Positions 9,203-47,810 of a DNA stretch of 64,000 nt are shown piece by piece (the first letter of the stretch is position 1; every line of letters begins with the position of its first letter). Position numbers and translations under genes: made by a program. Below the pieces are notes generated by a model. The model did not search any database, was not told the origin of the DNA, and worked only from the letters and a program-made list of their open reading frames with translations. Source of the stretch: an uncultured Clostridia bacterium (GTDB lineage Bacteria; Bacillota; Clostridia; Peptostreptococcales; Anaerovoracaceae); contig CAMENZ010000002.1 in NCBI GenBank assembly GCA_945928865.1, forward strand, positions 1 to 64,000. Reading direction: 5' to 3'.

Positions 9203-9220
9203 CTTGTACACCTCCTTAAG

Positions 9221-9342
9221 ATTAAAAAAAGGCGGATAAAATATCCGCCTTAATACACATAAACCGTGTAATTTTCAACATATCAACCTACACAAACGAC
9301 TGGGTCTGTTAGGTGAGAAGCGGATAACTTCTTCTTCGTTAC
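9221..9342 (-). promoter_or_regulatory. L20-type autoregulatory leader with attenuator (infC operon)
   Basis: A 5-prime leader of about 120 nt ends in an intrinsic terminator (arms GGCGGATA 9231-9238 and TATCCGCC 9242-9249, then seven T) placed just before the infC Shine-Dalgarno. An upstream TATCCGC (minus strand, 9320-9326) is exactly complementary to GCGGATA, the terminator arm transcribed second being its twin, so alternative pairing can build an antiterminator. This is the logic of the Firmicutes L20 leader, where L20 binding favours termination. Family assignment is by position and architecture; a covariance search was not possible. Confidence 0.85.
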
Positions 9343-44369: not shown

Positions 44370-44398
44370 TTGACTATGTACTTTTAAAGTGCTAAAAT
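44370..44398 (+). promoter_or_regulatory. Promoter upstream of cobalamin riboswitch
   Basis: TTGACT (44370-44375), 17-nt spacer, TAAAAT (44393-44398); RNA would start about 30 nt before the aptamer. Confidence 0.7.
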
Positions 44399-44438
44399 AA
44401 GTCTGTTAATGATATTAACATACAATTAAATCAAACTA

Positions 44439-44588
44439 CTATGTCTACTCGGAAGAGTAGCTAAGAGGGAAACAGGTTAAAGTCCTGTGCGGTCCCGCCA
44501 CTGTAAGTATGGAGCTGTTGCCGTTATCCACTGGGAAACTGGGAAGGAGGCTGACAGCGTTGAAATACAAGCCAGGAGACCTACATAG
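44439..44588 (+). ncRNA. Cobalamin (B12) riboswitch aptamer
   Basis: Closing stem CTATGT (44439-44444) / ACATAG (44583-44588). A hairpin CTACTC-GGAA-GAGTAG follows, then the conserved core: AGAGGGAAACAGGTTAAAGTC, the box GGTCCCGCCACTGTAAG (about 44481-44497), and GCCAGGAGACC near the 3-prime side. All are hallmarks of the cobalamin class. An intrinsic terminator follows at 44673-44700, so adenosylcobalamin or a relative should switch transcription off. The regulated gene is an SseB-domain protein. Confidence 0.95.
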
Positions 44589-44672
44589 ATAGAAATTTTG
44601 CAATTTGGCGAGGTATCGAATATGCTTAAATCAAAATTTTTTCCTTAATTTTTTGTGCAGTAAAAACGGGTG

Positions 44673-44700
44673 CTGTAGTCAATCTGACTACGGTTTTTTT
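44673..44700 (+). terminator. Expression-platform terminator of the cobalamin riboswitch
   Basis: Eight-bp stem CTGTAGTC-AATCT-GACTACGG (one G-U pair) followed by seven T, 28 nt before the sseB-like ATG. A further inverted repeat AAATTTTG (44592-44599) / CAAAATTT (44632-44639) lies between aptamer and terminator. Confidence 0.85.
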
Positions 44701-44728
44701 ATTGATTTGAAAAGAGAGGAAATGTAAC

Positions 44729-45157
44729 ATGAAAAAAATTTTATATGACAATGAAGTAATTGAAGCTGCAATTTCAGATTACAAAAATGACCCCTGCGAA
44801 GAAACTGTTCAGAGAGTAATGAGTGCTATAGGTTCTAGAATAATAGCAGATGGAAAATATCTAGTCCCTTTAGAAATTTTAAACAAAGAAGCTGCTAAAC
44901 AGGGAAACTGTAATCTTCCCCTTAGAACCATCAGTTTTTCCGGTGGAAAAAAGGCTATGCCTGTTTTTACCACTGAAGAAGAAATGAAAAAAGAAAATGT
45001 AACCTCTGCTGTACAGTTAAACATTAGAGAACATTTAAGGTTGGTAACAGAAATGGAAGAAATTACAGGAATAGTAATCAACCCTTTCGGCAATTATATG
45101 ATTTTACCTATAGGAATTTTGAAAATGATATTAACAGCTAATAAGATGATTTGTTAA
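44729..45157 (+). CDS. SseB-domain protein under cobalamin riboswitch control
   Basis: 142-residue protein whose second half matches the SseB N-terminal domain: DGKYLVPLEI, KKAMPVFTTEEEMKK, and TGIVINPFGNYMILPIGIL. SseB was named for enhanced serine sensitivity when overproduced; biochemical role unknown, and the domain also occurs in type VII secretion and immunity-like proteins. No signal peptide or membrane segment. GAGAGG lies 9 nt before the ATG. The riboswitch and terminator stand directly upstream with no other gene between, so it should be made only when B12 is scarce. The next gene, maf, has a 138-nt gap. Confidence 0.82.
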   Translation: MKKILYDNEVIEAAISDYKNDPCEETVQRVMSAIGSRIIADGKYLVPLEILNKEAAKQGNCNLPLRTISFSGGKKAMPVFTTEEEMKKENVTSAVQLNIREHLRLVTEMEEITGIVINPFGNYMILPIGILKMILTANKMIC

Positions 45158-45295: not shown

Positions 45296-45904
45296 ATGAA
45301 GAATAAATATAAACTTATACTTGCATCCGGTTCACCAAGGCGAATCAATATGATGAAAGAGCATGGCTTAGATCCAATTGTTTTTCCCGCTGACATTGAA
45401 GAAAATCCACCCTTAAAAAAAGGTATGAATGAAACAGTAATGTTTTTAGCTCTTAAAAAAGCTTTAAATGTGGAAAAATCTTGGTTAAAAAACAACCCTG
45501 AATCAGAAAATCATATTATAATCGCTGCTGATACTATAGTATATCATGACGGAGAAATAATGGGTAAACCGGCAGATTTTGAAGATGGAAAAAGAATGCT
45601 TTTAAAGCTAAAAAACACTTTTCACTATGTTGTCACCGGTGTAGCCCTCGTAGAAGCAGGTGTAAACCACAAAAAAGTATTCGTAGAAACTACTAAGGTC
45701 TTCTTTAAGGATTATACAGAAGCAGAATTGGAGGAATATTTAAGAACTGATGAGGCATACGATAAAGCCGGTGCCTATGCTATTCAAGGATATTTTTCAA
45801 AATATGTGAGTCGCATTGAAGGTGATTACAACACTGTCGTGGGCTTTCCGTGGGACAGAATCCAAAAAGAATTGAATAATTTTATCGGAGGAAAGAATAT
45901 ATGA
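45296..45904 (+). CDS. maf: Maf-family nucleotide pyrophosphatase
   Basis: 202-residue Maf/YhdE house-cleaning enzyme that hydrolyses non-canonical or dTTP/UTP-type nucleotides. LILASGSPRR at the N-terminus, AADTIV (catalytic Asp), GKPAD, and YDKAGAYAIQG are the family motifs. GAGGAG lies 7 nt before the ATG at 45296; a TTG at 45281 overlaps the ribosome site and is rejected. Overlaps mscL by 4 nt (ATGA). Confidence 0.93.
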   Translation: MKNKYKLILASGSPRRINMMKEHGLDPIVFPADIEENPPLKKGMNETVMFLALKKALNVEKSWLKNNPESENHIIIAADTIVYHDGEIMGKPADFEDGKRMLLKLKNTFHYVVTGVALVEAGVNHKKVFVETTKVFFKDYTEAELEEYLRTDEAYDKAGAYAIQGYFSKYVSRIEGDYNTVVGFPWDRIQKELNNFIGGKNI

Positions 45905-46293
45905 AAAAATTTTTAACAGAATTTAAGGAATTCATTGCTAAGGGAAATGTAATGAATATGGCAGTAGGTATCATTATAGGTGCTGCATTCACAGCAATCG
46001 TTAATTCATTGGTTGCTGATATAATTACACCAATCTTAGGTTTAATAATTGGTGGTCTTGATTTTTCAACCCTTTCATTTGGAATTGGCGAAGCAAACAT
46101 TATGTATGGTAACTTTATTCAAGCTATCATTACATTCCTATTAACCGCTCTTGTAATTTTCTGGATTATGAAAGCTATCAATAAGATGATGACTATGAAC
46201 AAAAAAGAAGAAGCTCCAGAACCGGAAGCTGAACCTGAGCCAACAAATGAAGAAAAGCTTTTAGCTGAAATAAGAGATTTATTAAAGAAATAG
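45901..46293 (+). CDS. mscL: Large-conductance mechanosensitive channel MscL
   Basis: 130-residue channel that opens on osmotic downshock. Two membrane helices (NMAVGIIIGAAFTAIVNSLV, about 18-45; FIQAIITFLLTALVIFWIM, about 72-92), the N-terminal amphipathic KEFIAKGN, and a C-terminal helical bundle EEKLLAEIRDLLKK after a Glu/Pro linker. Co-translated with maf through ATGA. Confidence 0.96.
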   Translation: MKKFLTEFKEFIAKGNVMNMAVGIIIGAAFTAIVNSLVADIITPILGLIIGGLDFSTLSFGIGEANIMYGNFIQAIITFLLTALVIFWIMKAINKMMTMNKKEEAPEPEAEPEPTNEEKLLAEIRDLLKK

Positions 46294-46382: not shown

Positions 46383-47150
46383 CTATACTCTATTTTTATC
46401 ATATATAACCTTGAGTCCATGCATCACTAATTTTTCATTTATGATAATTTCATGTCTGCAAAGAGGAATAACCTTAGTAGCAAAGCTTCCTGTAGCAACA
46501 CATTTTGCCTTATATCCCAGTTCTTCTTCAACCCTATCTATCATTCCGTCTATAGTACAAGCAGCACCTAAAAGTAAACCGCTATTTAAACTGTCTATAG
46601 TGTTTTTACCTATTGCCTTAACAGGAGTATCCATAGATACTCTATAAAGTTGATCCGCCTTAGCGGCTAAAGCTTCCATGGAAAGCCGTACTCCCGGTGA
46701 AATACTACCACCTATATAACAATTACTTTTGTCTACAACAGAAATAGTATTAGCCGTTCCCAAATCTATTAAAATCAAAGGTCCTCCGTAATAGTTAATG
46801 GCGGATACTGCCCCAACTATTAAATCACTGCCTATAGACTTAGGATCATCCATCTTTATATTCAACCCTGTCTTTATTCCGGGTCCTACAACTAAAGGTG
46901 TTTTTCCAATAGTTTTTTCCACGCCCTTGACTAACTCCTGAGTCAAAGGGGGTACTACAGATGAAAGAATGGCTCCTTCTATATCTAATAGTGAAATATT
47001 ATAAAGTTCTAAAACTGTTTTAAAATTTACAGCATATTCTAAGGCGGTTTTGGACTTATCCGTAGAAATTCGCTCCACAAAAACTGTCCTATCCCCCTCT
47101 AAACAACCAATTGAAATATGGCTGTTACCCATATCTATAGCTAATATCAC
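46383..47150 (-). CDS. coaX: Type III pantothenate kinase
   Basis: 255-residue acetate-kinase-superfamily enzyme for the first step of CoA synthesis, insensitive to CoA feedback. AIDMGNSHISIG (phosphate loop), GSDLIVGAVSAI, LIDLGTANTISVVD and GGSISPGVRLS are the family motifs. Start is GTG at 47150 with AGAGGC about 7 nt upstream. Lies 46 nt after an ECF S component that probably imports its substrate. Confidence 0.95.
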   Translation of the reverse strand: MILAIDMGNSHISIGCLEGDRTVFVERISTDKSKTALEYAVNFKTVLELYNISLLDIEGAILSSVVPPLTQELVKGVEKTIGKTPLVVGPGIKTGLNIKMDDPKSIGSDLIVGAVSAINYYGGPLILIDLGTANTISVVDKSNCYIGGSISPGVRLSMEALAAKADQLYRVSMDTPVKAIGKNTIDSLNSGLLLGAACTIDGMIDRVEEELGYKAKCVATGSFATKVIPLCRHEIIINEKLVMHGLKVIYDKNRV

Positions 47151-47195
47151 TTTATTGCCTCTTATTTTTTCCAGACTCTAACTTGAATTATAATC

Positions 47196-47810
47196 TTATC
47201 TATTTCCTATTAATTTAGCTTTATACATTGCAAAACCTACAGCACCAACTACCAATGTAGAAATTACTATTTCAGCAATTGCATTTACAGCTACCAATAA
47301 GAACAATGATGGAAGCAGACCTAAACCTTCTTTAGTCATACCTCTAACTATGTCAGTATTTCCGAAAAGAAGTGCTAATGTAGTCATAAATAAAATAGTA
47401 TTTAAAGCTGCTGCTAAAAATCCTGCAAGAGAAATGTTTAGACTTACAGGTGCCTTATGTCTTAGCGCTTCATAAATTAAACCTACAGCCAAGCCTGCTA
47501 ATAATCTTGTTATTACACAAACTATAAAAGTATATATAGGGTTAATTCCAAGTAAAGCTGCACCAAAAGCATCTCCTCCTGCGATTCCTAAGCACTTTAA
47601 AAAGCTGGTTAATCCGAAAACGGCTCCTATGGCAGCTCCGCCTTTAGGTCCTAAGGAAATAGCAGCTATAGCTACCGGAATCATATTCATAGTAATAGCT
47701 AATGGTCCGATTTGTAAATATCCAATCGGTGTGTACATCATAAGAAGTAAGATGGCAATCAATAGTGCCATAATAGTCATATTACGTACATTAAAAGACT
47801 TTGAATTCAT
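47196..47810 (-). CDS. ECF transporter S component, probably pantothenate (PanT-like)
   Basis: 204-residue protein with six hydrophobic segments. The N-terminus NVRNMTIMALLIAILLLMMYTPIGYL and the AISLGPKGGAAIGAVFGLTSF segment are typical of ECF S components. It is followed by coaX, so pantothenate is the likely ligand; this rests on context. No EcfAA'T genes nearby. Perfect AGGAGG lies before the ATG. Confidence 0.85.
   Translation of the reverse strand: MNSKSFNVRNMTIMALLIAILLLMMYTPIGYLQIGPLAITMNMIPVAIAAISLGPKGGAAIGAVFGLTSFLKCLGIAGGDAFGAALLGINPIYTFIVCVITRLLAGLAVGLIYEALRHKAPVSLNISLAGFLAAALNTILFMTTLALLFGNTDIVRGMTKEGLGLLPSLFLLVAVNAIAEIVISTLVVGAVGFAMYKAKLIGNR

Follow-up and report, generated by a model that had tools for sequence, protein, structure and literature searches.

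Why does a cobalamin riboswitch stand directly before a gene of the SseB family in an uncultured Clostridia bacterium of the family Anaerovoracaceae? SseB is a family without established function, and a riboswitch of known ligand, together with neighbours for B12 capture and synthesis, gives it a physiological context that can be tested. The locus lies in a stretch of 64,000 nucleotides (the window; contig CAMENZ010000002.1, positions 1 to 64,000), where a reading of the sequence alone had noticed the arrangement and proposed for SseB a role linked to a lack of B12. The target classes given in a survey of cobalamin-riboswitch regulons are the synthesis and transport of B12, the transport of cobalt, and isozymes of B12-dependent enzymes; SseB is not named in its main text (PMC3766115), which bears out the view of the sequence-only reading that SseB lies outside the usual targets. 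An earlier report of a link between SseB and B12 was not found in the open-licence literature, which is weak as evidence of absence.

Is the leader a normal cobalamin leader? Its parts and the genes that follow are collected in Table 1. The aptamer scores far over the curated RF00174 cut-off of 31.5 bits and covers model positions 1-189 in full, ruling out a chance match; it begins upstream of 44439, where the sequence-only reading had placed its start, but the full aptamer claimed there is present. Aptamers were detected with Rfam and an nhmmer profile, a regular expression for the B12 box having been dropped because it missed most known aptamers. The 1.55 Mb genome to which the window belongs holds seven cobalamin matches, six of them above the cut-off, and the window aptamer has the top score. 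The seventh (C2:200434-200579) reaches 29 bits, below threshold, and has no clear target gene. The predicted intrinsic terminator is likewise where it was claimed, before the gene, and is the only terminator-like site on the plus strand between 44050 and 46400. Among the cobalamin leaders examined in this genome and its relatives, a terminator lies between aptamer and first gene in 13 of 13, and 12 of these terminators start with A(A/T)ACGG; the window leader is a normal member of this set. Promoter-like sites turn up just as often in shuffled sequence as in this region, so the one upstream of the aptamer counts as a consensus match only. Elsewhere in the window, a ribosomal protein L20 leader (9218-9342, minus strand) is ordinary.

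Table 1. Leader elements and genes at the SseB locus, in window coordinates.
Feature	Position	Strand	Basis
Sigma-70-like promoter, TTGACT-17-TAAAAT, TG before second hexamer	44370..44398	+	Consensus match 10/12
Cobalamin riboswitch aptamer	44424..44602	+	RF00174, 106.6 bits, E 1.1e-25, complete
Aptamer 3' strand GACCUACA, proposed antiterminator strand	44578..44585	+	Complementary with one bulge to 44674-44680; inferred
Intrinsic terminator with T tract	44672..44700	+	10-pair stem 44672-44694, about -12 kcal/mol, T run in sequence
Likely ribosome binding site AGAGAGGA	44713..44720	+	Read from sequence, 8 bases before ATG
SseB N-domain protein, 142 aa	44729..45157	+	PF07179, 56.2 bits; ORF
maf-like gene, possible read-through	45296..45904	+	PF02545; no plus-strand terminator-like site after SseB
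mscL, possible read-through	45901..46293	+	PF01741

How might such a leader act? The aptamer 3' strand and the terminator 5' arm UGUAGUC form a computed duplex of -6.2 kcal/mol with one bulge, and their ability to pair points to a leader that is switched OFF at B12 sufficiency. We propose that it is a riboswitch of the adenosylcobalamin type that works by transcription attenuation. With the cofactor bound, the aptamer would retain GACCUACA, the terminator would form and SseB would be off; with the cofactor absent, the same strand would pair with the 5' arm and SseB would be transcribed. Minimum-free-energy folding of the full leader did not give two clean states, though the terminator is complementary to the aptamer 3' strand.

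What is the gene behind the switch? The PF07179 match spans residues 11-124 and stands well above the cut-off of 21 bits, a score that rules out a misread identity, while the second domain of the family, SseB_C (PF14581), is absent by Pfam. The gene begins within 30 bases of the terminator and has its own ribosome binding site. No plus-strand ORF of at least 60 aa occurs between aptamer and SseB; a transporter gene hidden there is thus ruled out, and the claim that SseB follows directly, with no corrinoid gene between, stands. No enzyme domain was found in the protein (PF07179 is the sole Pfam match, and NCBIfam gives none), and a sequence search of solved structures returned no significant relative. 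A structure predicted for the protein alone had a pLDDT of 35.5, too low for a fold search. A plasmid search gave no match, and a contig scan of genomes with the single window protein gave one weak relative, which lacks an aptamer.

Does the pairing of aptamer and SseB recur? PF07179 was sought in 350 genomes of the bacterial family (297 in a first pass), 70 of which were positive, and the regions upstream of about 75 SseB genes, all but a few second-pass matches, were scanned with Rfam. Fifteen of these genes encode a two-domain protein (SseB plus SseB_C) and form one clade in the N-domain tree, with support of 96/94. An aptamer lies upstream on the same strand in 9 of the 15 (genomes G163, G188, G216, G127, G092, G094 and G152, and twice in G235) versus 1 of the remaining 61 or so SseB genes, the single case being the window gene (Fisher p 3.2e-7, with relatedness ignored). 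The riboswitch label requires at least five changes on the N-domain tree. None of the nine has a transporter between aptamer and SseB: the first gene is SseB itself or, in three loci (G152, G092 and one of the two in G235), a protein of 95-98 aa and then SseB. A B12 transporter inserted in relatives, which the sequence-only reading had held out as evidence against its proposal, was therefore not encountered, and the link it proposed to B12 shortage is strengthened by the recurrence. Its concern that the gene might be a solitary case has a divided answer, as the wiring is recurrent for two-domain SseB and solitary for the N-domain-only type of the window. A search widened to the order and class turned up more distant SseB proteins of the two-domain type in other families, with no cobalamin aptamer in the flanks that were read; one of these (G536) has a gene for an exported-type protein two genes on.

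The recurrence also bears on the genes downstream. Could maf and mscL be the true regulated genes, with SseB merely the first gene of the unit? Both lie on the same strand, with no terminator-like site between, and so might be reached by read-through. Yet a gap of 139 bases separates SseB from maf, neither gene has a known B12 link, and the relatives wire SseB to an aptamer without maf or mscL. We consider this the least probable of the explanations weighed here, hardly a credible one. On the minus strand beyond, a type III pantothenate kinase gene adjoins that of an ECF transporter substrate component (window 46383-47810), plausibly for pantothenate.

Where does the window protein fall? In the N-domain tree it groups with a different subclade from the two-domain clade, although its placement inside that clade is not firmly excluded by the AU test (p 0.089). 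No aptamer was found before the other genes of its subclade that were checked, which leaves the window gene, within the family sample, as the one riboswitch-linked member of its subclade. The family search brought up no further genome from the window's genus. Fusions with ADP-ribosylglycohydrolase, Macro or HD domains are common among sampled members of the subclade (as at L046, L049, L087 and L039), and they suggest an accessory or binding domain. The window's own genome also encodes a two-domain SseB, with SseB_C present, which has no aptamer and stands directly behind pcrA-ligA (L020:4271-8991). An island of B12 genes and SseB in G095 (L169:1-5220) adjoins pcrA-ligA as well, and the aptamer-less gene may be a remnant of an island of that type.

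Did a rearrangement then simply bring the riboswitch in front of an unrelated N-domain SseB, for instance through loss of a former target, with no B12 role for the gene? The isolation of the window gene in its subclade, the two-domain SseB of the same genome without an aptamer, and neighbours (maf and mscL) without a B12 link would all fit such a capture. Against it, the aptamer, the strongest of the genome, is intact, as is the terminator, and SseB sits close behind the latter with its own binding site. With two-domain SseB recurrently wired to an aptamer in this family, it would also take a coincidence for the captured gene to be an SseB. We therefore judge capture unlikely, while still giving it appreciable weight.

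What company do the two-domain genes keep? By reading, genes for exported proteins with signal-peptide-like starts flank 10 of the 15. Several of these neighbours carry DUF4430, Big, SLH or toroid domains by Pfam, and others carry none; the toroid (prenyltransferase-like) matches fall below the curated cut-off. A toroid together with DUF4430 is the layout of intrinsic factor. In vertebrate transcobalamins, DUF4430 is the C-terminal domain (PMC4350170). The SseB gene of G095 comes after an island holding cbiC, a CobQ-type gene and cbiB. Elsewhere in the window's own genome, cobalamin aptamers stand before a binding-protein ABC transporter and before DUF4430 proteins, and B12-binding, aminomutase-type proteins are encoded, from which it follows that the organism uses B12. 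Several loci (L161, L159, L156, L053 and L058) have groups of two or three cobalamin aptamers inside 1-2 kb, and every aptamer of such a group precedes a different gene.

The 95-98 aa protein deserves mention in its own right. It has no Pfam or NCBIfam name, occurs in 66 of 297 family genomes, and in 17 of the 29 loci read is preceded by a cobalamin aptamer at a distance of 94-304 bases (sites at L015:3419-3706, which is C1:154256-154543 of the window's own genome, and at loci L137-L166). This family is an unexplained member of the B12 regulon, and a stronger one than SseB.

These neighbours bear on two kinds of role. The sequence-only reading had offered a bypass as an example, in which SseB would replace or compensate a B12-dependent reaction in serine/methionine metabolism or acyl transfer. 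The name SseB derives from serine sensitivity in E. coli, which can be counted for a bypass. Isozymes of B12-dependent enzymes are, moreover, a known class of cobalamin-riboswitch target (PMC3766115). However, SseB shows no enzyme domain, and the invariant columns of the two-domain proteins are mostly L, P, F and G plus one E, residues that look structural, with no catalytic-looking set. The neighbours, too, are genes of corrinoid capture, salvage and synthesis and not metabolic isozymes. A bypass enzyme is thus very improbable, and because the neighbours belong to capture, uptake and synthesis and the invariant residues do not look catalytic, an accessory role is favoured over it. A corrinoid chaperone, which had also been suggested, is possible.

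Together, the recurrent wiring and the neighbours place SseB in the B12-scarcity regulon of this family. On balance, we think it probable, by a modest measure, that the leader is an attenuation leader of the adenosylcobalamin type and that SseB is a scarcity regulon member, most likely a non-catalytic accessory of corrinoid acquisition. Such a protein would be small and cytoplasmic; we favour a partner of exported transcobalamin-like corrinoid binders, and it might alternatively handle corrinoid after uptake. Counting against this reading as a whole are the lack of the C domain in the window SseB and its position in an otherwise riboswitch-free subclade, the riboswitch-free two-domain SseB behind ligA, and the folding, which gave no clean two-state switch. 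More tentatively, and with slightly less than even confidence, we suggest that SseB and its 95-98 aa companion are unrecognised parts of scarcity-induced corrinoid acquisition around exported proteins with DUF4430 and a toroid, and that the shorter SseB took the riboswitch slot in the window species. The hint is that one bacterial family uses intrinsic-factor-like corrinoid capture with accessory proteins not described in the literature searched.

How does the locus compare with known systems? With RF00174 attenuation riboswitches it shares a full aptamer, a terminator downstream and a gene immediately after; it differs in its target, SseB. With the SseB family (PF07179 plus PF14581, as in E. 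coli SseB) the window protein shares the N domain, but it consists of that domain only, whereas the recurrent riboswitch-linked relatives have both. Two papers describe BtuG and DUF4465 proteins of Bacteroides as corrinoid binders that B12 scavengers export or display at the surface (PMC6143338, PMC13398666). The likeness to these proteins and to vertebrate transcobalamin is that of exported or surface corrinoid binders; the proteins and the lineage are different, and the operons described here add SseB and the 95-98 aa protein.
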